Shown here: positions 21,899-36,928 of the stretch, piece by piece
Layout of the letters: each line of letters starts with the position of its first letter
Position numbering within the stretch: the first letter of the stretch is position 1
Assembly: GCF_001278705.1 (NCBI RefSeq)
Contig: NZ_CP012600.1
Coordinates: 4,437,864-4,501,863, forward strand
Source of the DNA: Bacillus gobiensis
GTDB taxonomy: Bacteria; Bacillota; Bacilli; Bacillales; Bacillaceae
Direction: 5' to 3'
DNA: 64,000 nucleotides
Position numbers and translations under genes: made by a program
The notes under the pieces: model-generated
Told to the model about the DNA's origin: nothing
Seen by the model: only the letters and a program-made list of their open reading frames with translations
Databases searched by the model: none

Positions 21899-21916
21899 AA
21901 ATTGGACGTGAATGCA

Positions 21917-23296
21917 ATGAAAACAAATCCCCCGGTTGAGAAAAATGAATATATGGACGTGCAATTTGTGGATTTGACTCATGAAGGGGCGGGGGTTGCG
22001 AAAATAGACGGCTTCCCTATTTTCGTACCAAATGCTCTTCCAGACGAAAAAGCACAAATTAAAATCACGCGTGTAAAAAAAGGCTATGCCTTCGGAAGGC
22101 TGATGGAGATAAAGGAAAAAAGCCTTCATCGGCAAGAAGCGCCTTGCCCAGTCTACAAGCAATGCGGCGGCTGCCAGCTCCAGCATTTGACTTACGCCGG
22201 CCAGTTAGCCTTTAAAGAAAAGCAGGTTAGAGATGTTTTAGAACGAATCGGCAAGCTTGATATGAGCCGTGTCACTGTCCATCCAACGCTTGGGATGGAC
22301 GAGCCGTGGCGATACCGCAATAAGGCCCAGGTCCCGCTAGGTGAAAGAGAAGGCGCGCTAATCGCCGGCTTTTATCAGCAGCGTACTCACGAAATCATTA
22401 ACATGGACGCCTGCTTGATCCAGCACGAGAAAAACGATCAAGCGGTACAAGCCATCAAGGACATCTGTAATCAATTTGGACTAAGGGCATACGAAGAAGC
22501 GCGGCATAAGGGCTGGTTCCGCCACATTATGGTCCGTTACGGCGTAAACACCGGAGAAATGATGATCGTCTTTATTACAAAAACAAATGATTTTCCTCAT
22601 AAGAAAGCTATTTTAGAAAAAATCATTGAACGATTCCCTGCAGTAAAATCGATCGTCCAAAATGTAAACCCGAAACGTACGAACGTCATATTCGGCGACG
22701 AAACCAACGTGCTTTGGGGAGAAGAATATATTTATGACACGATAGGCGACATCAGGTTTGCGATCTCTGCCAGGTCCTTCTATCAGGTCAATCCGGAACA
22801 AACAAAGGTTCTTTACGACAAAGCTCTGGAATACGCCGAGCTAACGGGAAAAGAAACCGTAATTGACGCATACTGCGGAATCGGCACGATTTCTTTATTT
22901 CTCGCCAAAAAAGCGGAAAAAGTCTATGGCGTTGAAATCGTACCGGAAGCGATAGAAGACGCCAAACGAAACGCCGAGCTGAACAACATCACAAATGCTG
23001 AATTTGCAGCGGGCGAAGCAGAGGCTGTCATCCCAAACTGGTACGAACAAGGAATCAAGGCAGACACCATTGTTGTTGATCCCCCGCGTAAAGGCTGTGA
23101 CGAAGCCTTGCTCAGAACGATTCTGGACATGAAGCCGAAACGCGTCGTCTACGTATCATGCAACCCAGGAACCCTAGCAAGAGACTTGAGAGTGCTGGAA
23201 GACGGTGGGTATGAGACTCAAGAGGTTCAGCCTGTGGATATGTTTCCACATACGATGCATGTGGAGTGTGTAGCGAGATTAACCCTTAAATCATAG
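21917..23296 (+). CDS. rlmCD: 23S rRNA (uracil-5-)-methyltransferase RlmCD
   Basis: RlmCD (B. subtilis YefA) methylates two uridines of 23S rRNA (U747 and U1939 in E. coli numbering) using S-adenosylmethionine. The 459-residue protein has an N-terminal TRAM domain, a 4Fe-4S cluster site (Cys77, Cys83, Cys86 and the Cys in MDACLIQH), the SAM motif [20 protein letters not shown] and the catalytic Cys415 in [12 protein letters not shown] start at ATG 21917, which gives the family length; a TTG at 21902 is weaker. The last codons form the left copy of a 55-bp repeat that marks an integration site, so the gene's 3' end may have been rebuilt by integration. Confidence 0.95.
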
Positions 23297-23302
23297 GGTT
23301 TT
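23248..23302. other. Left attachment site (rlmCD 3' end)
   Basis: These 55 bases cover the end of rlmCD and its stop and recur at 36732-36786 with three mismatches. The integrase gene begins just inside. Two TTGACCACA repeats at 23322-23330 and 23333-23341 are likely integrase arm sites; one recurs at 36809. Confidence 0.8.
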
Positions 23303-23373
23303 TAACGGTCAAAATGATGAATTGACCACATTTTGACCACATTCGGGGGAAATTAAGTGATTTTTAGAGTTTT

Positions 23374-24519
23374 TTAACTTTTCTCTTCTAAATAATCGCT
23401 AAACGCTTGGCTGCTTTTTTCCTGCATAACAGGTGTAACGTGAGCATAAATGTCACCTGTCATTTGAATGCTTGTATGACCAAGTCTTTCTTGTACATCT
23501 TTTAGGCTTGCGCCAGCTTCTAACATTAGAGTAGCATGAGTGTGCCTAATATCGTGAACACGGATTTTTGGCACATTTGCTTCTTTAATTATTCGATTAA
23601 AGATAGTAGTGAAAGTTCGGAAATAGATTGGCGGTCCATCTTTCCGAGCAAAAATTAAATTTTGATCGTCATACTCCGATCGTATTGCTATCTTTAATTC
23701 CGATTGCTTCGCTTTATAAGAACGCAATTCCTCCATAACTTTTTTATCTACTTTTACGCTACGTTCAGACTTTTCCGTTTTCACAGGACCGAAACGAAAT
23801 CCTTGTTTGTCGTATATTAGTGATCTGGATACGTTTATTCTATTTTCCGAGAAATCTACATCAGACCATTTAAGCCCTAATAATTCCCCGCGTCTTAATC
23901 CAGTGTAGGCATCCAATTTAAAAGCCATATAGTAGGTAATATCACCAAATTTAGCATGACCCAGGAATCGATTTAATTCTTCACGTGACCATGTAATTGT
24001 TTTTCTTCTTCTACCTCGGGGAATATCGACTTTCTTTAATGGGTTTTTTATAATTAGCTCCCAATCAACTGCTTTTTCAAGAGCACCATAAAGTACCGTG
24101 TAAATGTATTCGATGTATCGATCGGATAACCCATCTTGTAATAATGAATTAATGAATTGTTCGTAATGAGTACTTTTTAGTTCGCTTAATTGAAAATGGC
24201 CAAGAACCGGAATGACTCGATAATCAATTGCTCTCTTATAATTGGTAAACGTCGTATCTCTTACTTTTCGTTTTGCGGCTAAATCTAACCATTTGTTAAG
24301 GTATTCCTTAAGAGTCATTTTGCTGTCAACAATATAAGTATCCTTGTTGATTTGGTTTTCAATTTCATTGGCTACTTTCTCTGCTTCTCTTTTTGTTGCG
24401 AATCCTCTTCTGGTGATTTGTTTTCTTTTCTTTGTGATTGGATCTCTACCGAGTTCAATGGTAAATGAGTAAGTATATCCTTTTTTATTTTTTGCTGGGA
24501 TCTTACGGTAATATGCCAT
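23374..24519 (-). CDS. Tyrosine site-specific integrase
   Basis: This 381-residue phage-type integrase has an AP2-like arm-binding domain at the N-terminus (residues 1-60, YTYSFTIELGRDP), a SAM-like core-binding domain (about 65-165) and a catalytic domain. The catalytic residues are present: Arg209 in TGLRRGELLG, a Lys near 247, His322 and Arg325 in HDIRHTHAT, His348 in LGHTS and the nucleophile Tyr358 in DIYAHV. The gene ends 70 bases from the left attachment repeat, as expected for an integrase that uses the rlmCD 3' end. The ribosome-binding site (AAAGAAG) is weak. A short relative of its C-terminus survives at 36845. Confidence 0.93.
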   Translation of the reverse strand: MAYYRKIPAKNKKGYTYSFTIELGRDPITKKRKQITRRGFATKREAEKVANEIENQINKDTYIVDSKMTLKEYLNKWLDLAAKRKVRDTTFTNYKRAIDYRVIPVLGHFQLSELKSTHYEQFINSLLQDGLSDRYIEYIYTVLYGALEKAVDWELIIKNPLKKVDIPRGRRRKTITWSREELNRFLGHAKFGDITYYMAFKLDAYTGLRRGELLGLKWSDVDFSENRINVSRSLIYDKQGFRFGPVKTEKSERSVKVDKKVMEELRSYKAKQSELKIAIRSEYDDQNLIFARKDGPPIYFRTFTTIFNRIIKEANVPKIRVHDIRHTHATLMLEAGASLKDVQERLGHTSIQMTGDIYAHVTPVMQEKSSQAFSDYLEEKS

Positions 24520-24556
24520 TCTTCTTTAATAAACCCTTTCCAAGCGGAAAGGATTT

Positions 24557-24737
24557 TTATTTTTTCCGTACATCCACAATATCTATAAATTTGACCAGAT
24601 TTGTATCCCCCTTGTTATCCACAACATGAAGCTGTTTTGTTCGCCCGCTTATGTATTCCACAAGCCCTGTAACATCACGAAAATGTCCATCATCATACAC
24701 AATAAACTGTAACGGAAAAACAAGTTCCATTGAATTA
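24557..24737 (-). pseudogene. YolD-like protein, C-terminal remnant
   Basis: About 59 codons on the minus strand (YDDGHFRDVTGLVEYISG...DIVDVRKK, stop) parallel the C-terminal half of the intact YolD-like gene at 25137. The N-terminal half and its promoter are missing. Confidence 0.8.
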
Positions 24738-24942
24738 CCCTTCCGATTGGAGGGGGGTTCAAAATGTACACAACATACCCCTGGCGCCGATTCTTGTAGT
24801 TTTATGCCTTTTTATAATACTTAGCGAATATGCACAAGCACTTGGACCTTACTCAGAATATGATTATTAATATGTTTGAAAAAAAGGAAAAATATATTTT
24901 TTGAGTAAATAAAAAAGTTGAGAAATTGGAGTGATAAAAACC

Positions 24943-25086
24943 ATGAGCGAACATTATGAAGAAGATAGATCCCCTACCTCTTCAACTGAAAAAGAATCTT
25001 CAACTGAAAACAAATCCTCAAATAAAAATGAATCTTCAACTGAAATTAAACCAACGTTAATGGAACAAAAATGGGTCAAACACTAA
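24943..25086 (+). CDS. Small Ser/Thr/Glu/Lys-rich hypothetical protein (47 aa)
   Basis: A 47-codon frame starts at ATG with GGAGTGA about nine bases upstream. The product is highly polar, with repeated SSTE(N/K)(K/E)S units in residues 10-36, and has no membrane segment. It resembles no family I know; it may be a disordered linker peptide or a decayed coding end. The good ribosome-binding site is the main support. Confidence 0.4.
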   Translation: MSEHYEEDRSPTSSTEKESSTENKSSNKNESSTEIKPTLMEQKWVKH

Positions 25087-25136
25087 ACCTATTATTTTGC
25101 TGTCATTATGGAGAGATTAATTCTCTCCGGTACATA

Positions 25137-25484
25137 CTAATTCTTTTTTAAATCCACAATATCCTCAAACCTAATAAAATTCGTATCATCTTTACTATCC
25201 ACAACATGCAGATGTTTTGTTCGTTCGTTTATGTATTCCACAAGCCCTGCGACTTCACGAAAATGTCCATCATCATACACTTTAAACAGTAACGGAAAAA
25301 CAAACTCCATTGATTCAGAGATTAGGGTCTCCATATTCTCAATCTGTTGCTCATCCAGCTCCGGCTTTTCGACCTTCATTTGTTCCTTTTTACGGGCCAG
25401 CAGCGCTTCACGGTGTTCTGGCAGCATCATTCTTGAAGACTCCCACCTCATGTTAGATCCCGGCGTTAACATATTTGATTTCAT
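25137..25484 (-). CDS. YolD-like family protein under a LexA box
   Basis: This 115-residue protein has the YolD-like domain: MLTPGSNMRWESSRMMLPEH at the N-terminus and a C-terminal YDDGHFREVAGLVEYINER. In Bacillus, YolD-like genes are usually SOS-induced and sit before a Y-family polymerase such as UvrX or YqjW; that polymerase gene is absent here. AAAAGGAGG lies before the ATG, and a LexA-type box lies 33 bases upstream of the start. It is one of three YolD sequences in this island and the only complete one. Confidence 0.85.
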   Translation of the reverse strand: MKSNMLTPGSNMRWESSRMMLPEHREALLARKKEQMKVEKPELDEQQIENMETLISESMEFVFPLLFKVYDDGHFREVAGLVEYINERTKHLHVVDSKDDTNFIRFEDIVDLKKN

Positions 25485-25515
25485 TGTAATTCCTCCTTTT
25501 AAGGGTAATTATATA

Positions 25516-25529
25516 GGAACGTGTGTTCT
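25516..25529. promoter_or_regulatory. LexA (DinR) box of yolD
   Basis: GGAACGTGTGTTCT matches the Bacillus SOS consensus GAAC-N4-GTTC. It sits directly upstream of the intact YolD-like gene. Confidence 0.8.
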
Positions 25530-25857
25530 ATATTCAATAAGAAAAAACACCCGCTAGTTAGGCAGGTATAACCTTCGAGATATGTATGATCTTAGAGGGG
25601 CTTTTCCTTCCATAACTTATCTCATCAAATTAATTGGGTAGAGATCAAAAATTACTTACAAATATAGTAAGTGAAGTGATTTTAAGTTTGATGGAATACG
25701 TAGAGCTTTCAAAGACAGTGGAAAAATTGTGATATTTGCCCGGCACAACAATGAAGTAACAAAAAAGTTTCCTTACTCTCTAAAATTCTTCTCTATTTTT
25801 TGATATTATGTATGTAAATAACTTTTTTTATTGGATCAATAATTTAGGAGTGAAACT
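25530..25857. other. Intergenic stretch without recognised genes
   Basis: Apart from the promoter-side sequence of yolD I see only AT-rich sequence without convincing coding or RNA structure. Confidence 0.5.
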
Positions 25858-26040
25858 TTGAAAAAAATCAACATACTTTTATCACTTATTTTAATAATTA
25901 ATTTAGTAATGCTAGTAGTAATTTATCAACAAAACAAACAACTAAATAAATATGAGCTTTTATTTACAAACATAGAAGGGAAATTAGAAGATATAGATGA
26001 TGCTATAGACGACCAAATAATACCTAATTTAAAAAAATAA
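25858..26040 (+). CDS. Small single-pass membrane protein (60 aa)
   Basis: The frame starts with TTG after TAGGAGTGA at good spacing and is followed by a strong terminator, so it is probably real. Residues 5-25 form one hydrophobic helix (INILLSLILIINLVMLVVIY), followed by a polar, acidic, possibly coiled tail (ELLFTNIEGKLEDIDDAIDDQ). No family is recognised. It could be a small membrane regulator or a phage-type accessory peptide. Confidence 0.6.
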   Translation: MKKINILLSLILIINLVMLVVIYQQNKQLNKYELLFTNIEGKLEDIDDAIDDQIIPNLKK

Positions 26041-26041
26041 T

Positions 26042-26080
26042 AAAAAATGGTCCATTATACAAAATGGGCCATTTTTTATT
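26042..26080 (+). terminator. Terminator of the small membrane protein gene
   Basis: An 11-bp stem with one G-U pair and a T run. It also faces the convergent secreted-protein gene. Confidence 0.8.
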
Positions 26081-26082
26081 TA

Positions 26083-26985
26083 CTAGTAAGTCCAATCAAC
26101 ATGAGTATCTGTTGCATTCGATGCTGCACTTCCTGATAGAGAAATAGCACCAAGAGAAAGTGAAACAGAGTAATAAGGTGATGTTAAAGCATGAGCATAG
26201 TGACCATATAAATCAGCCGTATTATCACTAGTTTTATCTCTATTAAATTCAAAGTAAAAATATCCTTGATGATCATAAGGTGGATGATTAGTACCCACTT
26301 TTTTAAGGTCAAACTTGTCTGCATACCCATAATAATTCTTTGTGTCAGCACTATAATCAGCTGGTAAATAATGAGTCCCTATACCATCTTTATACCAATG
26401 TCTTGCATATTCTGAACCAGCAATTTTATCTACATTGTCTCCATGTGTGATTGCTATAGTATCAGAAAATCCAATATCAGGATTAGATAACCACTTATAG
26501 GATGTTTTTGCGAGATATGTAGAACCAATATCAGATACAGTTGTAGTTTGTGTAATCCACCCGTCATTTTCAGTATCTGAGGCCGCACTAGCATTGTTAA
26601 AATTTATTAAACCATGTTTATTTTCTTTCTGTTTTTTTAATTTTTCAACTTCTTTAAGTGCTTCATCTTTTGTTGACTTTATCATTTTTTTTTGCTGTTT
26701 TCCGTTTTCATCGATGTAGTTATCAACTTTAAAATACTCTTCTTGTTTTGCAATGATTTTCCCTTTTTTTCCTTTGAATCGTTTAGAAGTATGTTCTAAA
26801 TCTTCTTTAGACATATTTACAATTTCGTCCGAGGTAAAACCTAATCCTTCTAACCATTTCTGTTCGTCATTGCTAATGTCTGCCTTTAACTTGTTTTCAC
26901 TAGCTGCCTTTGTAGATTGAGGAAACTCAATATTAATAGAAAGAGTTAAACAAGCTACAATCCCAGCAACAAAAAGTTTCTTCAA
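26083..26985 (-). CDS. Secreted protein of unknown function (300 aa)
   Basis: A Sec signal peptide is clear (KKLFVAGIVACLTLSI, with cleavage likely after STKA near residue 27). Residues 30-75 (WLEGLGFTSDEIVNMSKEDL) are helical and acidic; a Lys/Glu-rich linker follows to about 130. The C-terminal half is Gly/Tyr/His-rich with DGWITQTTTVSDIGSTYLA, EYARHWYKDGIGTHYLP and a Ser/Gly-rich end, suggesting a beta-rich extracellular domain. I start at TTG 26985 because GGAGGG lies just upstream of it; an in-frame ATG at 27000 overlaps that site. No family is recognised. Confidence 0.7.
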   Translation of the reverse strand: MKKLFVAGIVACLTLSINIEFPQSTKAASENKLKADISNDEQKWLEGLGFTSDEIVNMSKEDLEHTSKRFKGKKGKIIAKQEEYFKVDNYIDENGKQQKKMIKSTKDEALKEVEKLKKQKENKHGLINFNNASAASDTENDGWITQTTTVSDIGSTYLAKTSYKWLSNPDIGFSDTIAITHGDNVDKIAGSEYARHWYKDGIGTHYLPADYSADTKNYYGYADKFDLKKVGTNHPPYDHQGYFYFEFNRDKTSDNTADLYGHYAHALTSPYYSVSLSLGAISLSGSAASNATDTHVDWTY

Positions 26986-27358
26986 AATTAAACCCTCCAA
27001 ATTCTATTCTCACATTTACCAAAGTAACATACTAGTAACATTTTTTCCACTCATTTCCCAAATTGACATTACTTTTTTATCATTGTTTAGCATATTTTTA
27101 TAGAATTTTGATAGCATATCCATTGAAAACAATTCAACAGCAACCCACAAAAGGGAATTGATTATTATAATTTTCTTTATGATGTAAAACAAACAATTCT
27201 TTGCTAACATTAATCTTTTTATCTATCTTTTCAAGCATTATAGAATGGGAAGTCACATTGAAGGAATTTTCAGATTTTTGACAACTTAAAGCACGGTATT
27301 TTTTAGAAAACTCATATGCTAACTGAGCTCTAAAGGTTATTTCTACATATTCAACGGT
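26986..27358. other. Intergenic stretch, no convincing gene
   Basis: AT-rich sequence. A 64-codon minus-strand frame at 27016-27210 has no ribosome-binding site or recognisable domain, so I do not call it. Confidence 0.5.
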
Positions 27359-27484
27359 TCATCTATTTCTCTTTTTTATCTCATATTTCTTAAAGAATTC
27401 CTTGATTTCATCCGGCTTGATTCCTATTTCCAATGCGTGCAAGACCAACAATCTCCATTCGAGATCTAATTTTTTATAATCCAT
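27359..27484 (-). CDS. SinI-like anti-repressor (41 aa)
   Basis: The 41-residue product (DLEWRLLVLHALEIGIKPDE, then IKEFFKKYEIKK) has the SinI dimerisation fold pattern: D-EW--L---A---GI---EI--F. SinI peptides bind SinR-type repressors and free biofilm and motility genes from control. AAAGGTGTGG precedes the ATG. No sinR-like gene is next to it, so if active it would act on the host SinR or on another island's repressor. A decayed second SinI-like stretch lies at 32345. Confidence 0.72.
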   Translation of the reverse strand: MDYKKLDLEWRLLVLHALEIGIKPDEIKEFFKKYEIKKRNR

Positions 27485-27518
27485 TTTTCCACACCTTTTA
27501 AATAGTAGGTATGGTAAC

Positions 27519-27552
27519 CGACCAAACTGACTAAACAACTGACCAAACTGAC
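27519..27552. repeat. Direct GACCAAACTGAC repeats
   Basis: Two GACCAAACTGAC copies plus a half copy lie close to the tRNA-Thr fragment. They resemble the TTGACCA arm-type repeats near the attachment sites and may be recombinase or excisionase sites. Confidence 0.35.
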
Positions 27553-27657
27553 CAGAAATTGATTTTAAGTGTCATGAAGTAGCCTAATGGCAATCTGTAA
27601 AACATTGATATATAAGGGTTTGTCATAAAGTCGAATATTGCTGCCTTGTACCATTAT

Positions 27658-27703
27658 CTCCATGGTAAGGAAGAGGTCAGCGGTTCGAGCCCGCTTGGAA
27701 GCT
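27658..27703 (+). pseudogene. tRNA-Thr(GGU) 3' fragment
   Basis: Anticodon loop ATGGTAA with a GGAAG stem, the variable AGGTC, a perfect 5-bp T-arm (AGCGG/CCGCT around TTCGAGC) and the acceptor end TTGGAAGCT are all present. The acceptor 5' strand and D-arm are missing. This is the typical footprint of an integration into a tRNA gene. Confidence 0.75.
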
Positions 27704-27762
27704 TATACATAAACGTTGATATGACAAGGTTTCTCCTATATCGGAGGAACCTTTTTTAATAT

Positions 27763-28321
27763 GTGTGGAAAGAACTTCTGCTCGATTTGAAAGACCGTGG
27801 TGTAGAAGAAATCCTGCTCTTTATTTCGGACGGCTTAAAAGGTATTACAGATAGTATTTTTAGTGTGTATCCAGATGCCAATTATCAAACGTGCTGTGTT
27901 CATTTAGCCCGTAATATTGCCCATAAGGTACGTGTAAATGACCGTCCGAAAATTTGTTATGACTTCAAATCAATTTATCGTGCTGAAAGTGCAGAAGCAG
28001 GACGAGAAGCATTGAAAGAATTCTGTACCAAATGGCAATCAGCGTATCCAAAAGTGACGAAGTCACTCAGTGAAAATCATTATATCTTCACGTTCTACAG
28101 CTTTCCTAAATCTATTTGGAAAAGCATTTATTCAACGAATTTAATTGAGTCGTTTAATAAACAGATCAAGAAATATACAAAACGGAAAGAACAATTCCCT
28201 AATGAAGAAGCAATGGAACGATTCCTGGTGTCACAGTTTGATGATTACAACCACACGTTGTCATATTGGTTTTGATCAAGCTCGTGCTGAGCTCGCAGCT
28301 ATGTTCAAATCGAAAGAATAA
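27763..28321 (+). pseudogene. IS256-type (Mutator) transposase, C-terminal fragment
   Basis: The fragment begins mid-gene (ELLLDLKDRGVEEILLFISDGL) and shows the IS256 family block CCVHLARNIAHKV...YSTNLIESFNKQIKKYTKRKEQFPNEE. The N-terminal half is absent. Near 28255 the frame is lost: the expected end GFDQARAELAAMFKSKE is in another frame and ends at 28321. The downstream tail TTTACACAAAATTATTGA up to about 28380 looks like the IS right end. The element cannot move by itself. Confidence 0.85.
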
Positions 28322-28605: not shown

Positions 28606-29418
28606 ATGACTAATTCATTTGTATCGCGATCTTTGGATGAGATACGTTTTTGGTCAAGGATCATGAAGGAACATGCTTTATTTTTAAGCTTAGGATTTAA
28701 TTACGATGATGAACAACTTATTCAAGAAGCAAAGCAATTTATTCCTTTATTTGAAAGAATTGAAGAGCAACTTAGTAGATTTTCTATAAACTCTGATCCT
28801 CAGCAAATTGTTCAATTTAATAACCAGGTTTACCAAGCCGCTGTATCTATTTATGCCTATAAACGAAAAGTACTTGGACTCACTTTGCAATGTAAAGTTA
28901 GATCTAATAACTATGCGTTATTAATTGACCATACTAGCCGCGAAGCAGCGTATTTTGCGAATCGATTAAAAGAATTAAATGAGGGTAAACTAGTGCCTTT
29001 ACCAACAGCAATCATTAAAGAAAATGTATTCTTTTTAAAAATTATGGCAGACCATGCCAAATTTATCGGTCATCTTCTAGATCCTTCTGAAAGAAAATTA
29101 GTCGAACAAGCTAGGGACTTTAGTCATGACTTTGACCAACTTCTTTATCAAGCAATTGATTTAGATTCCATGCGTCCTCAATCAGAAACTGCGCCAATTT
29201 TAGACCAATTCCTTGACCAGAATCGTGTATCAGTTGTGTCTTTGCGTAATTTTAAGAAAACAGCAAGAGATTTGATTGAAGCATGCAGAATTAAAAGTAA
29301 TATCCATCCATTGCTCGCTGATCACGTTTTCCGTGAAGCCGAACGATTCCTATTTATTATAGATATGTTTGAAGCAAGTTTGACCGGTAAAGCATCCTCT
29401 AATGTACGAGTTGAATAA
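28606..29418 (+). CDS. DUF2935 domain protein
   Basis: This 270-residue soluble helical protein contains two copies of the DUF2935 ferritin-like domain: residues 1-125 (RSLDEIRFWSRIMKEHALFL ... ALLIDHTSREAAYF) and 130-265 (ENVFFLKIMADHAKFIGHLL ... PLLADHVFREAERF). Regular EH/DH positions in the helices suggest a metal-binding four-helix bundle. These proteins are common in Bacilli and Clostridia, with no assigned function. AAAGGGGTGGG precedes the ATG. A second, broken member follows 270 bases downstream. Confidence 0.85.
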   Translation: MTNSFVSRSLDEIRFWSRIMKEHALFLSLGFNYDDEQLIQEAKQFIPLFERIEEQLSRFSINSDPQQIVQFNNQVYQAAVSIYAYKRKVLGLTLQCKVRSNNYALLIDHTSREAAYFANRLKELNEGKLVPLPTAIIKENVFFLKIMADHAKFIGHLLDPSERKLVEQARDFSHDFDQLLYQAIDLDSMRPQSETAPILDQFLDQNRVSVVSLRNFKKTARDLIEACRIKSNIHPLLADHVFREAERFLFIIDMFEASLTGKASSNVRVE

Positions 29419-29689
29419 TCAATCATGTATGGGTATAACACAAAAAAGGGTATATCTTTTATAAAGGTTTTCTATCTGTTCTTATTTAATAATCCTTGAA
29501 CCCAACGATTAGATTTAGTTATTCAAAATTATACGTTCGACAGGCCGATTCCATCTCCTACATGGCAATAGGTCTTAGCATTAAGTATTTAATGCATACC
29601 AAGAATGAAACTCTACAGGATGGCTATCAATAAACCATAAATAGAATTTGGTATTAAATAGTATGGGGATTTTCATAAGGAGGCAGTGC

Positions 29690-30470
29690 ATGAATGATGT
29701 TTTTGACATGAAAGCAAGATTTGAACATCGTTTTTGGCTTCAAATATTAGGCGATCATTCTAGATTTATTCATGAATCTTTATCACCAGTTCAAAAAGAA
29801 GAGATAGAAACGGCTTCAACATTTATTCGAGTATTTGATACACTTCTGGATCAAGCAAAAACTGAAGATCCTATACAATTATCAGCCAAAGCTGAAGCAG
29901 AGGTTTTTAAATTTCGAGAATTAAAGCTAGAATTACTAAGAAAACACCTTATCGGAAAAATAAAAATTCACCTTTCACCTACTTTTATTAATCATATGGT
30001 AAATGAATTAGAAGAGTATTTAAGAATTTTAAAACATTTAAAAACTGGGCAAGTTCCTCCTGTTTATCATGAACTACATTTTAGATGCTTCTGGTCATTC
30101 AGAAGCGATTTCCTCAAAATTAGACAGTGTTGAAAAAAGATTAAGGGAGAAAAGTGATTCATTTACGAAGCATTTTGAAGATTTTTACTTGAAAGCAGTA
30201 GAAATGGCAGGATATTTCAGAACCAATTTAACTACGTTTCCTGCTTTGATGAAAATGAATTCAGACACCCAGTTGGAAATCAAATTATTTCAGAACTTTT
30301 TACAAGAAATAGAAGAACTTGAGCTAAGTTACCAAGCATTAGGCACATTCGCCCCTTTAATAGCAGATCATATGATTCGTGAAGAATGTTATTATCTAAT
30401 GAAGTTAGCTGAGTCATCGAATCTTAATATGCCAAACTGTGATCCCACTAAACCACGAATTAAAGAATAA
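29690..30470 (+). pseudogene. Second DUF2935 protein, frameshifted
   Basis: The first part starts at ATG 29690 after AAGGAGG (FEHRFWLQILGDHSRFIHESL...PPVYHELHF) and the second part continues in another frame (LDASGHSEAISSKLDSVEKR ... APLIADHMIREECYYLM) to 30470. The break is near 30085, between HELHF and LDASGHS, a point where relatives are continuous, so bases were lost there. Together they give a normal two-domain DUF2935 protein of about 255 residues. Confidence 0.82.
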
Positions 30471-30811
30471 AAGAATTTCATAGTAAAAAATTTCTTTCTA
30501 TATTAGTAACTCAACTTAACTAGAAAGCCGAATTTTCTCAGGAATCCGGTTTTTACCTAATTGGCAGCAAGAGTATGTTATGTGTGTGTTTAATATAAAC
30601 AACGTATAATGGCTTTATGTTTTAAGGACATAAAAAATGGACAATATATTTTATCTTTTCTATATCTTTTCTAAGAGTAGAATAATGAAAGGAAATATCC
30701 TTGAGTTCCCTGTCATAACGCCGATATTTTGGTGATTTTTCTTTTATTAATGTTAAGAAAACCAAGGTAATTAGGTTATTACAGTTACATAAAATATAAG
30801 GAGGAACTTCG
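30471..30811. other. Intergenic stretch with weak hairpin
   Basis: A terminator-like hairpin (AGCCGAATT/GAATCCGGTT) with T5 lies at about 30521-30557. I see nothing else that is convincing. Confidence 0.4.
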
Positions 30812-31153
30812 ATGAAGCAAAATGTAGGGAAAGATGATTTTGTTAAAGGATTTGTCCCCCAACATACACATGGGTCTGTTGACTACACCTCAATTGAAGG
30901 CGGACACGTTCATCAATGTTTAGATGTTACGTATCCCCCTACAATCACTGAAGAAGGAAATCATATTCATTATACAGAAGGATATGTGTTATTTGAGGAT
31001 GGGCACACCCATCATTATCGTGCTTGGTCTGGTCCAGCTATCTCAGTAGGAAATGGAATGCATGTTCATTATTATGATTTCTATACTTCTGTTGATGATG
31101 GACATAGGCATCGAATAAAGGGAGTAGACCAACCGGCTCCTGGAAACAAATAA
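30812..31153 (+). CDS. YmaF family protein
   Basis: This 113-residue protein belongs to the YmaF family: it is rich in histidines arranged as repeated HxH pairs (HTHG, GHVHQ, NHIHYTEG, GHTHHY, MHVHYYDF, DGHRHR). The repeats suggest a beta-rich protein with metal-binding potential; the function is unknown. AAGGAGG sits at good spacing before the ATG and a terminator follows. It is next to the DUF2935 genes on the same strand but in a separate unit. Confidence 0.85.
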   Translation: MKQNVGKDDFVKGFVPQHTHGSVDYTSIEGGHVHQCLDVTYPPTITEEGNHIHYTEGYVLFEDGHTHHYRAWSGPAISVGNGMHVHYYDFYTSVDDGHRHRIKGVDQPAPGNK

Positions 31154-31298
31154 AAGAATTTTCGACCGTTTCCTATTACCATTTATAGCCCCATTCATAC
31201 ATACGAACAAAGATGAATACGGTACGTTTATACGTAATTTAATTGATTTTTTGTGTTGTTGTTCTATAGTTGATGAGAAAATTACGAAAGCAATAAAG

Positions 31299-31330
31299 AA
31301 GATGTTGGGGTGTATTCCAACATCTTTTTT
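31299..31330 (+). terminator. Terminator after ymaF-like gene
   Basis: The perfect 10-bp stem AAGATGTTGG/CCAACATCTT is followed by a T run. Confidence 0.8.
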
Positions 31331-31355
31331 CAAAAAACGTCAAACGGATCTTTTT

Positions 31356-31400
31356 TTATTTTTTTCTTACATCCACAAACCTAATAAAATTCGTATCCTT
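31356..31400 (-). pseudogene. YolD-like C-terminal scrap
   Basis: The last 14 codons (DTNFIRFVDVRKK and stop) match the ends of the YolD copies at 24557 and 25137. It is the third YolD trace in the island. Confidence 0.6.
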
Positions 31401-31410
31401 CACAAACTAG

Positions 31411-31623
31411 TCAAACAATAAATCCATCCTCCATGTACACAATCCATTTATTCTTTTCTTTGTCCCATTTAATCCTGTTTTGAGCGATAAGGCTTTTTAT
31501 GATCTGCCGCAGCTCTTTTTCATTCCGGCCAGTTTTGATTTTAAGTTGCTTCAGTGTTACGGGCTGATGAGAAATTGTGTTATTGAATATAATTCGAAAG
31601 ACTTTTCGTTCAATGTCGTTCAT
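31411..31623 (-). CDS. Small winged-helix-like protein under a LexA box (70 aa)
   Basis: The 70-residue product starts at ATG 31623 with AAAGGAG nine bases upstream; longer in-frame starts read through the LexA box and are unlikely. The sequence NDIERKVFRIIFN...PVTLKQLKIKTGRNEKELRQ reads as a winged helix-turn-helix, with a basic recognition helix (residues 24-44) and a wing ending in WKDKEKNKWIVY-like strands. It sits behind a perfect SOS box, so it is likely DNA-damage induced. The target is unknown. Confidence 0.7.
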   Translation of the reverse strand: MNDIERKVFRIIFNNTISHQPVTLKQLKIKTGRNEKELRQIIKSLIAQNRIKWDKEKNKWIVYMEDGFIV

Positions 31624-31655
31624 TTCATAAAGCTCCTTTTTGAACTTATTATATG

Positions 31656-31669
31656 GGAACGTACGTTCT
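31656..31669. promoter_or_regulatory. LexA (DinR) box
   Basis: GGAACGTACGTTCT is a perfect GAAC-N4-GTTC palindrome upstream of the winged-helix gene at 31411. The flanking bases resemble those around the yolD box at 25516. Confidence 0.82.
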
Positions 31670-31764
31670 TTATACAACAAGAAAAAATACCCACCATCAG
31701 GTGGGCACAATATTAGAAATATGAATATCTTCTGTTCTGAACTTTATCTAGTTCTGCCGATCGC

Positions 31765-32172
31765 TTATGCTCTCAAAACTTTAAATGCTTCTCTTACTTT
31801 CCTAGCAAAATCCAATGGCGGTTCAACTGATTCAAAGTGCATATACATAGCCCGTGGTTCTTCGAATAACCAATGGTTATGAACTGCTGTTACAATAATA
31901 TCTCGTTTTCTAAGTTCAGTTAATAAGGGATTGACTTCTTCTTGTAATAGCACTGTTTCACCTAAATTCAAAGCTCTTCCTCTACTATCGACATCTTCAA
32001 AAGTAAAAAATTGCGGAATGACCAATGGAGATTTCGTTGGGCGTCCAAGAATTGTAAAATCTATGTTTCTGAACTTTTGCACAAGACAAACATCATTTTC
32101 ATCTACACTACCCATTCCCCCAAGAATCCTGGCAAATTCCTGACAGAGGTTTTTGCGTTTTTCCCACTTCAT
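31765..32172 (-). CDS. DUF1259 (LppY/LpqO-like) domain protein, short form
   Basis: This 135-residue protein matches the DUF1259 family: QKFRNIDFTILGRPTKSPLV, then LLQEEVNPLLTELRKRDIIV and the hallmark HNHWLFEEPRAMYMHFES. It has no signal peptide and only one DUF1259 copy, whereas lipoprotein members elsewhere carry two. The HNHWLFE-HFE pattern suggests a metal or small-molecule site, but the role is unknown. GAGGTAA precedes the ATG. It is transcribed alone on the minus strand. Confidence 0.8.
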   Translation of the reverse strand: MKWEKRKNLCQEFARILGGMGSVDENDVCLVQKFRNIDFTILGRPTKSPLVIPQFFTFEDVDSRGRALNLGETVLLQEEVNPLLTELRKRDIIVTAVHNHWLFEEPRAMYMHFESVEPPLDFARKVREAFKVLRA

Positions 32173-32344
32173 AGGTTTACCTCATTTCTATAATAATTTT
32201 GAAGGAGTTTCATTTTAAATAAACGAATTTCCTTCACTATTAATAGTATGATTCGTCCTATGAATTCGAAATGTACAAGGGTATAGGGTGAAAGTGGAAA
32301 ATATTCATAAAGTAGTAATGAAATAAAACGGCAAAAAAGATAGA

Positions 32345-32430
32345 TAAGATGTTTAAAATAAATCACGTTTATCATTGGGTGAAATCCCTACCGCTAATGC
32401 TTCTAAAATCAATTTCCACTCTTCATATAA
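32345..32430 (-). pseudogene. Decayed SinI-like coding stretch
   Basis: On the minus strand a frame reads LYEEWKLILEALAVGISPND then KRDLF and stop, which fits the SinI pattern (EW--L--A---GIS---). An upstream in-frame stop and no start codon mean it is a relic. Confidence 0.45.
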
Positions 32431-32465
32431 TTAATCGGGTTTCAATTTACTCAGGCTTTTTATAT

Positions 32466-32479
32466 AGAGCGTACGTTCT
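32466..32479. promoter_or_regulatory. Degenerate LexA box
   Basis: GAGCGTACGTTC differs by one base from the SOS core and is followed by the same TTTATTCAACAAGAAAAAAT tract seen next to the other two boxes. Confidence 0.6.
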
Positions 32480-32699
32480 TTATTCAACAAGAAAAAATAT
32501 CCATCGTTATGGGGAACAACCTTTGAAAAGTATAGTGCGTGTTTTTTGGCAGATAAACAGAAGAGATAAAGTGCATGAAGATCTCACCCCTCTTCTCTCC
32601 AGAGTCATGAAGGGTGAGTCGACCGCCCTTGAAATGCCGATTTTATTGCTATGAGCCAACCAGACCAAGGACCAGGTCTTTTTTTCATTCAGTTGTTAA

Positions 32700-33098
32700 T
32701 TAATCATAAAAGATTAAATGCATATCACTGCTAGTCCTTGATTTCGCAAAAAATTCCGCTTCATTTCCTCCATCAACAAAGTTACCAATACCCCAGAAAT
32801 ACCCACATTCGCCTGGTTTTAGATATCTTGTTCCTACATAGTCATTATAACTTGTAGGATCGTACTCCCATAATTCAACTTTTAAATCACTATCTGGACC
32901 CACGTATCTATCCCGACAAATCTTATAATCTCCGCCAGTAGAGGCATACACATGACTTTCAGCACCATAAGAATAAAGGGTTTCTTCTCCTAAGTAATCC
33001 CATCCGGAACTCAATGGTTCTATGCTGCTTGCAAATGTAGAAGAAGGGACCAACAACGCAGCTACCAATGCAACGACAATCATTTTCAAATTTTTCAT
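32700..33098 (-). CDS. Small secreted protein (132 aa)
   Basis: The signal peptide is clear (KNLKMIVVALVAALLVPSSTFA, cleavage after about residue 23). The mature part of about 109 residues is rich in Tyr, Gly and acidic residues (SGWDYLGEETLYSYGAES, KICRDRYVGPDSDLKVELWE) with two cysteines (in KICRDR and GECGYF) that may pair, consistent with a beta-sandwich. I choose the second in-frame ATG (33098), which is seven bases after AGGAGG; the first overlaps it. No family is recognised. Confidence 0.7.
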   Translation of the reverse strand: MKNLKMIVVALVAALLVPSSTFASSIEPLSSGWDYLGEETLYSYGAESHVYASTGGDYKICRDRYVGPDSDLKVELWEYDPTSYNDYVGTRYLKPGECGYFWGIGNFVDGGNEAEFFAKSRTSSDMHLIFYD

Positions 33099-33481
33099 AC
33101 TCATTCCTCCTCTCCCGTTTTGACTTGAAAAATCTTATTCGGCATATAATCCCAAAATCCTCCTGTTTTCTCCAAAAAAACGTTTTGTTATTATGCAACG
33201 GTTTTTGGAGTATCAAGTCCCTATAAGATGATTGATTCAACTATATCTATTGGGATCGCCCGAAGGGTCTGCTCATAGTCTGTAAGGCAGTAGGTTCGGT
33301 GAAAGAAGTTAAAAATGACATTTTGTGCTAACAAAATTGATGTTTCATGATCAATGTTCTTCGAAAAATTGTTTTCAGATTAGAGGGCAACCTGTTTTCT
33401 GACCTTGCTTGAAAAAATTTCCATGAATAGGTAGGAAATACTAGGAAAATAGTGGTGTATTATCTTAGAGGAGGAGAATCT
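33099..33481. other. Intergenic stretch, nothing recognised
   Basis: This region separates the divergent secreted-protein and metallo-beta-lactamase genes. I see no RNA, repeat or clear promoter. Confidence 0.4.
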
Positions 33482-34313
33482 ATGAAAAAATTAAAAATTT
33501 TTCTTTTGTCTTTAGTTAGCAACTCATGTTTCTGCAGCAAGCAAAAATCTTGTCGTCCATTACATCGATATTGGACAAGGTGATGCAATATATATCAAAA
33601 CACCAAAAGGTAACGACATCATAATCGATGCTGGCAACAAAGCAAAAGGAGACGATGTTGTTAAGTATCTCAAAAAGCAAAAAGTAGACGACATTGAGGT
33701 GATGATTGCAACCCATCCAGATGCTGATCATGTTGGTGGTTTAGACGAGGTTCTTGCTGCCTATCGAGTAGAAAATATTTATGCTCCAAAAGTATCTCAT
33801 ACCACACAAGCATACAAGGACTTTTTACAAGCAGTTAAAAGAGAAAAGAAAACCATTAAAACTGCAAAAAACGGTGCTACTTTGGGCTTAAAGGACAAGT
33901 CTATTAAAGCCGAATTTATTGGCCCTGTGAAAAACTATTCAAAAAGTGATCTAAATAACTGGAGTGCAGTCGTACATATTCAGTACAACAAAAACTCTTT
34001 CTTATTTACTGGTGATGCAGAGTTAAAATCTGAGAAAGACATGCTTTCCAAAAAATTATTATCAAAAGTTGATGTTTTAAAAGTGGGGCATCATGGGTCC
34101 AAGGATTCTTCATCTAAGGATTTCTTAAACAAAGTTAAACCCACATATGCAGTTATTAGTGTAGGTAAAGGAAACCGTTATAAGCATCCTACAAGTGAGA
34201 CGTTGAATCGACTAAAGACGGTTAAATCGAAAGTGTATAGAACCGATAAAAATAGCACAGTTAAAATCACTAGCAGTGGAACTAAAATTTCTGTGAGTCC
34301 AGCAAAGAAATGA
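33482..34313 (+). pseudogene. ComEC/Rec2-like metallo-beta-lactamase fold protein, frameshifted
   Basis: ATG 33482 after GAGGAGGAG opens a signal-peptide-like start (KKLKIFLLSLV), but the frame is lost near 33525. In a second frame the mature protein is continuous: ATHVSAASKNLVVHYIDIGQ, GDAIYIKTPKGNDIIIDAGN, then ATHPDADHVGG with the HxxxDH zinc motif, FTGDAELKSE and KVGHHGSKDSS. This is the stand-alone exported MBL domain related to the C-terminus of ComEC. The second frame has no start codon until GTG 33699, which would lose the first strand. A DUF3006 gene overlaps its end. Confidence 0.8.
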
Positions 34314-34534
34314 GTAAAGTTTTAAAAGGAATAATTGATCGTTTCGAAGGTGAAATAGTTGTTGTTGAGGTTGAAGGAGTAACCAAAGACTTTGATAAAG
34401 CCATTTTCCCAAAAGAAGCAACTGTTGGTGATGTTGTTGAAATTGAGGGGAATAAAGTAAGAGTTTTAAAAAACGAGACTGAAAAGCGTAGAAAAGAAGT
34501 AGAAAATTTAATGAATGATGTTTGGGAAGATTAA
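34310..34534 (+). CDS. DUF3006 family protein
   Basis: This 74-residue protein (KGIIDRFEGEIVVVEVEGVT, then KDFDKAIFPKEATVGDVVEI) matches DUF3006, a small beta-barrel-like family that is regularly encoded directly after ComEC-like metallo-beta-lactamases. Its ATG overlaps the MBL stop (ATGA), so the pair is translationally coupled. The C-terminal tail is charged and helical. With the MBL gene broken upstream, its expression depends on reinitiation. The function is unknown. Confidence 0.85.
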   Translation: MSKVLKGIIDRFEGEIVVVEVEGVTKDFDKAIFPKEATVGDVVEIEGNKVRVLKNETEKRRKEVENLMNDVWED

Positions 34535-34561
34535 AAGAAAAAAGCTTTTTGGTTGATATGA

Positions 34562-34622
34562 TCCCCATATTGTAGACAGAGATAAGAACGTTTATTATCT
34601 GTTTACAATAGGGGACTTTTTA
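34562..34622 (+). terminator. Terminator of the MBL-DUF3006 unit
   Basis: A long hairpin with CCCC...GGGG ends and a TATTGTA/TACAATA-like stem is followed by a T run. Confidence 0.75.
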
Positions 34623-34745
34623 ATGTAACTAGGACGTAAAAACGGCGAAATTGGAAATATTAGAAGACAAAAAAACTTAAAGTGACATTCTTCTATAAGA
34701 AATCCTCAATCATTTAGGGTTTGTTTAAGATTGTTGTTGATTTTG

Positions 34746-34778
34746 TTGTTAAACTAACGGGGCAGATTAGTTTAACAA
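34746..34778. repeat. Stem-loop repeat, copy 1
   Basis: Perfect 12-bp arms TTGTTAAACTAA/TTAGTTTAACAA surround the loop CGGGGCAGA. Related copies lie at 35330, 35379 and 35977. Confidence 0.8.
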
Positions 34779-34839
34779 GGAGTTTGTAGTTTTTTAAGGA
34801 AAATATTATATTAAAACATTAACTATTAAGGGGGACGAG

Positions 34840-35310
34840 TTGGTGGATGTAGTTTTTCAAACGGAAAAAGCAGTTTTTAATTATCATGTAGCAGGAATTT
34901 TGATTAAAAATGGATACGTTCTTTTACATAAGGATGTTAATGATAAAAATTGGGCACTTCCTGGAGGAAGAGTTGAAATCACGGAAGAATCACAATCAAG
35001 TATCAAAAGGGAATTTCGGGAAGAATTAGGAATAGATATAAAGGTAGTTAGACTGCTTTGGGTAGTAGAAAATTTCTTTGAATATGATGGCAGAAGTTTT
35101 CACGAGATAGGTTTTTATTACAATATTTTATCAGATGAAAATTCCCTGTTAGTTGATAAAGAATCTTTTTATGGAGTGGAAGGAGAACGGTTGATTTTCA
35201 AGTGGATGCCGATAGAGAAGCTTGAAGAAGTAGCGTTATACCCAGAGTTTTTAAGAACGGCTCTAAATAATTTGCCAAAGAACCCAGAGCATTTCGTTGA
35301 AAAAAAGTAG
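34840..35310 (+). CDS. NUDIX hydrolase
   Basis: This 156-residue protein has a complete Nudix box near residues 43-65: GRVEITEESQSSIKREFREE followed by LGI, with all Glu residues for Mg2+ present. Such enzymes cleave nucleoside diphosphates linked to another group; the substrate cannot be predicted. The start is TTG at 34840 after AAGGGGGA, or the adjacent GTG at 34843. The gene lies between two copies of the stem-loop repeat family and has no operon partner. Confidence 0.85.
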   Translation: MVDVVFQTEKAVFNYHVAGILIKNGYVLLHKDVNDKNWALPGGRVEITEESQSSIKREFREELGIDIKVVRLLWVVENFFEYDGRSFHEIGFYYNILSDENSLLVDKESFYGVEGERLIFKWMPIEKLEEVALYPEFLRTALNNLPKNPEHFVEKK

Positions 35311-35329
35311 GTAGTTGTCTTATGTTTTC

Positions 35330-35361
35330 TTGTTGAACTAACGGGTGCTTTACTTTAATAA
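35330..35361. repeat. Stem-loop repeat, copy 2
   Basis: TTGTTGAACTAA/TTACTTTAATAA arms with several mismatches surround the loop CGGGTGCT. It lies just after the Nudix gene. Confidence 0.7.
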
Positions 35362-35378
35362 AGAGTAAAGTATTTTTT

Positions 35379-35412
35379 CTTATTCAAGTAACGAGGCAGT
35401 TAGTACAATAAG
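35379..35412. repeat. Stem-loop repeat, copy 3
   Basis: CTTATTCAAGTAA/TTAGTACAATAAG arms, imperfect, surround the loop CGAGGCAG. It precedes the GNAT gene. Confidence 0.65.
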
Positions 35413-35459
35413 AACATTATGACTATCTTATATATAAGAAATGGAGAGGATTCAAAGGA

Positions 35460-35966
35460 ATGATTATTTTAGAAACTGAAAGGTTGTTTTTAAGACAGTA
35501 TAAAGAAGAGGATATGTCTTCTCTTTATTCTATTTTTTCAGATTCTGAAACAATGAAATATTACCCATCTCCATTTAGCTTTGAACAAACTCAAAATTGG
35601 ATTAAAAGAAATCAAGAAAGATACCAAGAAGATGGCTATGGATTATGGGGAATTTGTTTAAAAGAAAATAACGAATTAATAGGTGATTGCGGTCTGGTTA
35701 AACAAAAAGTGGATGGCAGAACGGAAGTTGAAATTGGTTACCATATCGATAAGATGTACTGGTCAAAGGGATTTGCATCGGAAGCAGCTAAAGGTTGCAA
35801 GGAATATGGATTTTATCAATTAGGCTTAAATAAGTTGATAAGCATCATTAATCCAAGAAATATTCCATCAATTCGTGTGGCAGAGAAAATTGGTTTTACT
35901 AAAGAAAAAGAATCCTTTATTTTTAATAAAAGCCATTATATATATTCGGGGTCTAAAGATACATAA
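35460..35966 (+). CDS. GNAT family N-acetyltransferase (RimJ/RimL-like)
   Basis: This 168-residue protein shows the RimJ/RimL-type GNAT fold: ETERLFLRQYKEEDMSSLYS at the N-terminus, an IGDCGLV strand, EIGYHIDKMYWSKGFASEAA for acetyl-CoA binding, and NIPSIRVAEKIGF at the end. It would acetylate an amine of a small molecule or protein N-terminus; the substrate is unknown. The ATG follows GGAGAGGA at about ten bases. It lies between copies 3 and 4 of the stem-loop repeat. Confidence 0.88.
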   Translation: MIILETERLFLRQYKEEDMSSLYSIFSDSETMKYYPSPFSFEQTQNWIKRNQERYQEDGYGLWGICLKENNELIGDCGLVKQKVDGRTEVEIGYHIDKMYWSKGFASEAAKGCKEYGFYQLGLNKLISIINPRNIPSIRVAEKIGFTKEKESFIFNKSHYIYSGSKDT

Positions 35967-35976
35967 GCTACCTACG

Positions 35977-36010
35977 CTTATTAAGCTAACTGGTGCTTTA
36001 GTGTAATAAG
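35977..36010. repeat. Stem-loop repeat, copy 4
   Basis: CTTATTAAGCTAA/TTAGTGTAATAAG arms surround the loop CTGGTGCT. It lies just after the GNAT gene. Confidence 0.7.
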
Positions 36011-36134
36011 AGTTCAAAAAAGGACTACAATCAAGTCCTTTTTTGTTTTTCTAAATTTATCAACATTTATTGAAATGTTAAGAAGAGCATAAATAAAGAC
36101 CTCGAAAAAAGAGGTAACTATAAAATATCTCATT

Positions 36135-36284
36135 TTAATTTTTGTGATTCTTATATTTTTTTAATTTGTCTAGATTCTCAAACTTTATTGATAACACCTC
36201 CCCATAATCCAAGCAAACAGTATAAGTTTTTTCAAACTCTGGTACTTGTATAAGTGAATTTTTGCCACAATTTGTGCAATCCAT
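36135..36284 (-). CDS. Small zinc-ribbon-like protein (49 aa)
   Basis: A 49-codon frame follows GGGAGGTGG at ideal spacing. The product begins MDCTNCGKNSL with a CxxC pair and has a further Cys in YTVCLDYGEV; the C-terminus is basic and helical (LDKLKKYKNHKN). It may bind zinc. No family is recognised, but the strong ribosome-binding site supports a real gene. Confidence 0.55.
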   Translation of the reverse strand: MDCTNCGKNSLIQVPEFEKTYTVCLDYGEVLSIKFENLDKLKKYKNHKN

Positions 36285-36412
36285 TAATTCCACCTCCCAA
36301 CATCTATAATATATTGAAATTTGTTAAGTTTGAAATAATAATGAGTAAATTGCTTTAATTTAATCCTTTTCTTTGTTATCAGCATTTATCAAACCTCTGC
36401 AAAAAGATCACC

Positions 36413-36455
36413 GACCTTCTAAGCCGTCGATCGTGAGTTCGAATCTCTCTTGGGA
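36413..36455 (+). pseudogene. tRNA-Arg(UCU) 3' fragment
   Basis: The anticodon loop CTTCTAA (anticodon TCT at 36418-36420), variable region and a T-arm with TTCGAAT are recognisable, with one T-stem mismatch and a degraded anticodon stem. D-arm and 5' acceptor strand are absent. It is a second tRNA footprint in the island. Confidence 0.55.
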
Positions 36456-36731
36456 TTCATAACTTCTTTATTCTCGAAAAGGATGGACAGCACCGGAATA
36501 CCATAAGCCCACCGATAGGGTAGGCTCCTTTTATTTAAGTTCAATAACTTTCAACGACCATTCCGACTCCTATATATTGATTCAAAACAACTTGACCACA
36601 TGACCACCAAATTGACCACTTTTTATCCATATTGGGTCATATTCCACCCTATAATGAATATTCCCCCAATACTAAAATCTCGATCAAAATTGGGCATTCA
36701 TATCGAAATATATCCGCATAACATCGATTGT

Positions 36732-36786
36732 ACATACGATGCACGTGGAGTGTGTAGCGAGTTTATCCCTTAAATCATAGGGTTTT
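36732..36786. other. Right attachment repeat (second rlmCD 3' end)
   Basis: It matches 23248-23302 at 52 of 55 bases and encodes [15 protein letters not shown] with stop, so it preserves the rlmCD frame. It is followed by TTGACCACATTCGGG, also present beside the left copy. Confidence 0.82.
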
Positions 36787-36844
36787 ATTTAACTGTCGAA
36801 AAGGTGAATTGACCACATTCGGGAAATCAGGGGTTTTTGTGATT

Positions 36845-36922
36845 TTACTTACTGTTTCCTTCTAGATAATCGCTAAATGCTTGGATGCTTTTTTCCTTCA
36901 TAACTGGAGTAACATGAATATA
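36845..36922 (-). pseudogene. Second tyrosine integrase, C-terminal remnant
   Basis: About 25 codons (IYIHVTPVMKEKSIQAFSDY then LEGNSK and stop) parallel the end of the integrase at 23374 but differ at several residues. They include the position of the catalytic Tyr. Orientation and distance from the attachment repeat are the same as on the left, so a second related element once integrated here. Confidence 0.78.
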
Positions 36923-36928
36923 TATATA

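Follow-up and report, generated by a model that had tools for sequence, protein, structure and literature searches.

A probable integrative element and the stub of a probable predecessor at the rlmCD 3' end in Bacillus gobiensis

The rlmCD locus and its repeated core

The window analysed here, 64,000 nucleotides of the Bacillus gobiensis chromosome (contig NZ_CP012600.1), carries at 21902..23296 of its plus strand the gene rlmCD, encoding a 23S rRNA uracil-C5 methyltransferase of 464 amino acids, followed by a 13.5-kb island that is probably an integrated element, here termed element 1. RlmCD possesses tRNA_U5-meth_tr and TRAM domains (Pfam) and matched the solved Streptococcus pneumoniae protein SP_1029/RlmCD (5xj1) with E=1e-121; its HVE motif aligned to the HVE of the solved chain, whose glutamate is residue 443. 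The final residues and stop codon of rlmCD lie inside a 55-bp core at 23248..23302 (plus strand), the left attachment site (attL), which recurs as a direct repeat at 36732..36786 (plus strand) with 95% identity, the starts of the two copies being 13,484 bp apart. The likeliest crossover region, CATGTGGAG, occupies 23258-23266. The right core, to which no rlmCD body is attached, would be attR of element 1 and simultaneously the core of the former attL of an older element, element 2.

Just inside the left core, an open frame of 381 amino acids at 23374..24519 (minus strand) was identified as the integrase of element 1, with PF00589, PF14657 and PF14659 above cut-off. Residues R209, K247, H322, R325, H348 and Y358 were invariant in a 12-row alignment, and we take these R, K, H-x-x-R, H and Y columns to be the catalytic residues of tyrosine recombinases. 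With three domains and the catalytic columns present, the enzyme appears complete as judged from its sequence. The nearest named proteins were three B. gobiensis integrases, 97% identical to that of the window. The first-pass annotation of this DNA had described a 55-bp repeat bounding a 13.5-kb island with an integrase at its left edge, and the tail of a second, diverged integrase after the right repeat; both descriptions were borne out. The tail is a 3' stub at 36845..36925 (minus strand), attributed to element 2, in which 25 codons are 80% identical to the C-terminus of the element 1 integrase before the match ends. Against the other matched integrases the stub gave 56-62% identity over 21-25 codons.

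The likeness of the two ends continues past the core in collinear order, between 23301-23332 and 36788-36819 (88%) and between 23347-23451 and 36821-36925 (78%); a search within a 42-kb stretch assigned the collinear block E = 5e-44. Joining both cores in silico yielded a RlmCD of 464 amino acids ending in HVECVASLSLKS, which differs from the present 12-residue tail. The right copy thus restores the reading frame with C-terminal codons other than those of the left copy, in agreement with the annotation. The G+C content drops around the left core, from 0.45-0.46 at 21-23 kb to 0.32-0.36 at 24-37 kb; low G+C goes on to the right of 38 kb.

Probable arm sites for the integrase were recognised as the motif TTGACCAC, which occurs eight times in the window against an expectation of 1.39, a count reached by none of 100 shuffled sequences. 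Five of the eight occurrences lie at the island ends (23322, 23333, 36592, 36612 and 36809): a pair within each end and a single one in the stub. The putative P' arm of element 1 (23322..23340, plus strand) comprises two sites 11 bp apart, in which GACCAC begins 66 and 77 nt from the core start. The corresponding P arm (36592..36619, plus strand) comprises two sites placed 150 and 130 nt before the start of the right core. Element 2 retains a single P' arm site (36809..36816, plus strand), 69 nt from the core start and with one repeat unit fewer than the left copy. Element 1 is therefore bounded by direct repeats, each flanked on its inner side by arm sites, the arrangement of an element moved by a tyrosine integrase. 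Given the intact left integrase and the arm sites within each end, the segment from 23.26 to 36.74 kb is taken to be the integrated element.

Use of the rlmCD 3' end in related genomes

A RlmCD-type match was present in all 44 genomes of the genus. Besides the window's own, full integrase homologues were found in two of these (G012, 65% identity; G019, 64%), in both cases directly at rlmCD, and G012 carries an additional, partial copy (66%) as a stub. The remaining integrase matches in the genus were at most 39% identical and lay more than 50 kb from rlmCD or its paralogue, or on other contigs, according to coordinates compared by eye. A scan of named genomes with two short patterns returned B. 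pumilus 36R_ATNSAL as one close relative together with two distant ones. The inspected rlmCD ends of the genus without the integrase are conserved to about the motif CATGTGGAGTGTGTGGC and vary freely after it; an alignment comprised 28 ends selected by this motif. In one genome (G037, C26:961-1608) the closer rlmCD match (73%) covers residues 3-218 only, though about 960 bases of contig remain, and the gene is possibly disrupted. The regions downstream of rlmCD differed strongly among 16 inspected genomes of the genus (L068-L083), some holding genes that resemble restriction or methylase genes by eye; because of these differences the position has the look of a general hotspot.

The search for islands at this site, proposed with the first-pass annotation, was extended to overlapping sets of 80 family-level and 397 order-level genomes. 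Ten full-length integrases scored at least 375 bits; nine of them adjoin rlmCD, and for the tenth (G188) only 208 bp of contig remain beyond the gene. Nine further integrases from the order search, scoring at most 324 bits, had no rlmCD within 1.5 kb. At class level, no rlmCD match was found within up to 1.5 kb on each side of any of the 29 loci inspected from among the matches listed; these loci were 35-42% identical except for one fragment of 53% (G550), and three of them are genes already among the nine order-level ones. The order- and class-level counts are lower bounds, with at most four candidates scored per genome. The notion that all relatives of this integrase use rlmCD is rejected by the class-level result. 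A viral contig with a 48%-identical integrase also ends in rlmCD, and a second such contig ends at the integrase. In a tree of 30 integrases the rlmCD users fell into two groups and two target changes were needed, leaving a single origin of rlmCD targeting unsupported. Two phage-type tyrosine-integrase lineages thus appear to use the rlmCD 3' site in the sampled order, the window's enzyme belonging to one of them.

Elements at the site vary in kind. Phage terminase or portal genes were detected by Pfam in those of G012, G073, G164 and G415, and the gene orders of G331, G288 and G849 are phage-like by eye and by cross-hits only. Among phage records the top-ranked was Bacillus phage SPbetaL5, with 34% identity over 99% of the query; none of the 3170 matching records in the phage collection searched reached 60%. 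An element of about 40 kb at rlmCD in G246 (L128-L130) contains a type IV secretion system coupling protein (PF02534), a YolD-like gene and, by eye, a relaxase-like gene. Since conjugative and phage genes both occur in these relatives, the integrase-att module is common to phages and at least one conjugative element. A paralogue of rlmCD, about 45% identical to it, constitutes a second target. Its 3' end is occupied in G849 (L200-L202) by a prophage-like element of about 51 kb with a 40-bp second core at 92.5% identity, and the tail found with that second core, 51 kb away, HVECVVKLTLKL, is by eye also of element type.

Four simple insertions (G073, G246, G415 and G164) show what integration does to the gene. 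The far end of each repeats 15-29 bp of the core around CATGTGGAG, after which another, longer or different rlmCD tail follows; these far-end tails are taken to be the displaced native ones. In the order given, the attL tails read HIENVALLTLI, HVECVTYLTPKV, HVESVTLLTL and HVESVTQLTLKQ, and the attR tails HVECVSQMILKEDAHS, HVECVTWLEKTDK, HVECVALLTKI and HVECVVLMSRVDK. On this comparison, therefore, 8-13 native residues after HVE are swapped for 7-9 residues encoded by the element. The crossover is predicted to lie within the codons of the catalytic HVE motif, so that insertion would replace the last residues and the stop codon. The glutamate of this motif is the counterpart of E443 of the S. 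pneumoniae enzyme, according to the part of the report available (PMC5614603). The exchange of the C-terminus is seen in these four relatives; for the window it is the position of insertion that is shown.

An element beside the stub of an earlier one is found at rlmCD in G012, G331 and G288 also. Beyond the right core, the window and these three genomes all have element-type codons and P' arm sequence; integrase remains come next in all of the four except G331. Most of an integrase survives in the G012 stub, together with a gene that looks ImmA-like by eye and a holin-like gene that is almost identical to one in the neighbouring prophage. Motifs like the P-arm sites precede the right core in G331, G288 and G246, and one such motif does so in G415.

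The exact core-plus-arm pattern occurred in 8 of the 397 genomes, while a reversed-pattern control gave no matches; the pattern misses the variant sites of G246, G415 and G164. Sites without a working integrase were found at rlmCD in G136 and G238 (no integrase) and G105 (internal deletion), and at the paralogue in G248 and G428, where the integrase is absent or broken; in G428 a perfect 27-bp second copy lies 2.8 kb off. Family searches, with 4 of 24 and 5 of 41 genomes positive, added G834 (intact integrase), G836 (broken, at the paralogue) and G849 (intact, at the paralogue). Altogether, 10 of the 22 core-and-arm sites examined have no intact integrase. The arm sites start 66 and 77 nt from the core start in all 12 sites with an intact integrase, the spacing on the viral contig having been counted by hand. 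Two arm sites are present in 12/12 of these as against 3/10 of the sites without, the remaining seven keeping one; in one of the three two-arm scars, the G012 stub, both sites are mutated. A Fisher test on the counts before three more genomes and the viral contig were added (9/9 intact, 3/9 degenerate) gave p = 0.009 with related rows treated as independent. Related genomes being counted repeatedly, the contrast is judged to rest on about three independent losses.

A strong hairpin was found in the arm region of G331, G238, G136, G248, G428, G105, G246, G073 and the G288 stub, mostly with a T run after it, and this combination looks like a terminator. No comparable hairpin was seen in G012, G019, G415, G164 or the attL of G288. 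At the attL of the window a stem is predicted without a T run, and a terminator scan admitting loops of 3-8 only listed none there. A terminator at attL is accordingly not universal.

Contents of the island and origin of the array

Behind the integrase, the minus strand encodes a YolD-like protein (25137..25484; PF08863, E=7e-27) with the palindrome GAACGTGTGTTC upstream at 25517-25528, which we take to be SOS-box-like, and a 305-amino acid protein (26083..27000) whose start resembles a signal peptide by eye and which matched no Pfam family above cut-off. A plus-strand C-terminal fragment of a mutator-type (IS256-like) transposase (27763..28275) covers only positions 210-372 of the 379 of PF00872. 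It is followed on the same strand by a DUF2935 protein (28606..29418), a second DUF2935 gene in two overlapping frames, a probable pseudogene (29648..30470), and a YmaF-family protein (30812..31153). Two small minus-strand genes (31411..32172) match phrog_3502, of unknown function, and DUF1259. The plus strand then carries a metallo-beta-lactamase-fold protein without the domain start (PF00753 from profile position 48) and a DUF3006 protein (PF11213) at 33699..34534, and NUDIX and GNAT-family proteins at 34840..35966.

Pfam on 16 of the larger island open reading frames (ORFs) and PHROGs on 10 detected no terminase, portal, capsid or tail genes; one island protein matched a 'tail protein' PHROG, across its metallo-beta-lactamase part. 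Relaxase and type IV secretion genes were likewise absent from the 16 ORFs (Pfam) and from a tblastn search with proteins of related regions. When proteins of at least 90 amino acids from eight related regions were compared with the island by tblastn, the integrase and YolD alone were matched. Near-identity searches with the island returned small matches in six plasmid records and no phage record. Since hallmark genes are absent among the scanned ORFs, element 1 is not a recognisable prophage or integrative and conjugative element (ICE). The island is considered decayed because of the transposase fragment, the split DUF2935 gene and the truncated metallo-hydrolase, and, by its gene content, it looks dead except for the integrase and att sites.

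Three related copies (78% and 60%) of a minus-strand module lie at 25493-25552, 31633-31692 and 32443-32502 and carry LexA/SOS-box-like palindromes, GAACGTGTGTTC, GAACGTACGTTC and a degenerate third. The first two are preceded by a hairpin and T run, and one module sits before the YolD gene, of which a second, partial copy (81%) occurs at 24558-24733. The palindrome pattern is weakly above chance (three occurrences against 0.77 expected; 4 of 100 shuffles reach three). The modules are perhaps remnants of separate SOS-regulated operons. Outside the island, BioW, a class I/II aminotransferase and a cytochrome P450 are encoded consecutively at 44199-47657, perhaps a biotin-precursor cluster of bioW-bioF-bioI type.

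Taken together, these data favour element 1, of about 13.5 kb, having integrated at rlmCD beside the stub of an older relative, with a probability of roughly 0.88. Recombination by its tyrosine integrase within the HVE codons would have carried element 1 into the rlmCD 3' end. The left half of that end would have stayed chromosomal, and the element would have supplied the final residues, stop codon and P' arm, its integrase gene lying just inside and convergent to rlmCD. The stub of element 2 would already have occupied the site, element 1 inserting between it and rlmCD. The right junction reads element 1 P arm, core, element 2 P' arm and integrase-2 tail, and because it is composite in this way, element 2 is placed first and element 1 second. 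A deletion would have taken away most of element 2, and element 1 would either have lost transfer genes or have lacked them from the start; judged by sequence, its integrase and both att sites appear intact. That rlmCD stays in frame would explain why such stubs persist when the rest is lost. Two elements with a common central att junction make a tandem array, the second element being represented by a stub only. Sequential integration into a protein-coding gene, as first proposed, is supported by the same-site relatives, the displaced tails and the element-plus-stub arrays elsewhere.

Several observations weigh against this interpretation. Neither the body of element 2 nor its far end, which would carry the native RlmCD tail of the species, was found. 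The major facilitator superfamily (MFS) gene flanking the stub on its right does not follow rlmCD in any of 16 inspected relatives, and in the 20 relatives having this gene it lies elsewhere by coordinates; the right flank has therefore been rearranged. The 120-130 nt inspected before each of the right cores of G012, G073 and G164 showed no P-arm site. The broken G550 integrase fragment lies away from rlmCD, adjoining a gene that resembles an IS3-type transposase by eye. In G834 (L195/L203), a draft contig, rlmCD is about 45 residues short before the core and out of frame, by deletion, off-target insertion inside rlmCD or assembly error; frame restoration is therefore not universal. Finally, the integrase and the transposase fragment are the only mobile-element genes recognised among the 16 scanned island ORFs.

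One alternative is that the island is largely native chromosomal DNA caught between two att remnants and not cargo. Its ordinary genes (DUF2935, YmaF, NUDIX, GNAT), the lack of recognised transfer genes and the low G+C continuing right of 38 kb would suit such an origin; however, G+C falls from 0.46 to 0.32-0.36 around the left core and both island ends resemble proper att sites, and we consider it unlikely. It is improbable that the 13.5 kb are the remains of a single ancient element whose partner attL became the right stub through rearrangement within the element or exchange involving tandem copies of it. The stub is indeed nearer to the window integrase (80%) than to other matches (56-62%), but the 22% nucleotide divergence of the integrase tails and the different C-terminal codons fit two lineages better, and element 1 has a normal attL/attR pair. 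A local duplication of the rlmCD end and integrase tail of one element, with no second integration, agrees with the right copy comprising only the region beside the integrase, but is rejected as very improbable on the divergence of the copies (78% over the integrase tail, with indels), the right copy's own preceding P-arm sites, as expected of attR, and the recurrence of similar geometry in G012, G331 and G288, the G012 stub keeping most of an integrase.

Significance and comparison with known systems

On the reading of element 1 inserted beside an older stub, the window is a decayed example of a wider pattern comprising two integrase lineages, fixed arm spacing, use of a paralogue and persistent scars. 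In serving as an att site, the rlmCD end would be the protein-coding counterpart of a tRNA 3' end, the HVE codons near the gene end likely being a conserved DNA target with expendable codons downstream. The combination of integrase lineage, core, two arm sites and fixed spacing provides a target rule with which prophages, ICEs and scars can be sought in the order and the value of these integrases as site-specific tools assessed. A more tentative proposal, which we hold to be possible though doubtful, is that the gene end delivered by an element outlives it as the working 3' end of the host gene and that serial grafting has shaped the RlmCD tail across Bacillales. If so, the graft would comprise C-terminal codons, a stop and, in several lineages, a terminator-like hairpin with arm sites in its loop, kept by the host at rlmCD or the paralogue after the death of the element. 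Since one arm repeat instead of two is often left where no working integrase is present, retention for the host gene and not for recombination is suggested.

In site-specific accretion, as among streptococcal ICEs, cis-mobilisable elements (CIMEs) and integrative mobilisable elements (IMEs), a newcomer inserts at one of the att sites bordering a resident element and a composite array results; the array described here differs in that its distal partner is a stub only. The integrases of SPbetaL5-type phages are related over nearly the whole length, but at 34% identity. The dusA-specific integrase family (PMC4482086), as far as the available part of its description goes, is similar in using one RNA-modification gene and in being common to prophages and islands; it enters the 5' end, whereas the elements described here use the codons of the catalytic motif at the 3' end.

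The closest parallel is the 3' end of the streptococcal rum (rumA) gene, which the accessible portions of two reports (PMC4288039, PMC4701971) describe as an integration hotspot, with an 18-bp attB for phage phi-m46.1. In the same portions, rumA ICEs have a single serine integrase with the att site inside the integrase gene, change the frame and swap the C-terminal codons of the methyltransferase upon insertion. Gene and position are the same, and the Streptococcus agalactiae attB, ACATCATGTGGAGTGTGT, lines up with the core described here. The window shares the rum 3' position with the rumA ICE family and has no serine integrase with an internal att site. Instead, as far as those portions permit comparison, the elements described here rely on a tyrosine integrase and arm sites, have an att site that is not part of the integrase gene, mostly preserve the reading frame and have a paralogue as second target. 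No published account of tyrosine integrases at rlmCD in Bacillales was found in the literature listings and abstract openings consulted, which is weak evidence of absence. The target itself is already known from streptococcal rum, at the same codons; new here are the tyrosine-integrase lineages, the paralogue target and the scars, and two unrelated integrase classes, serine in the rumA ICEs and tyrosine in the elements described here, would thus converge on the same few codons of an rRNA methylase.

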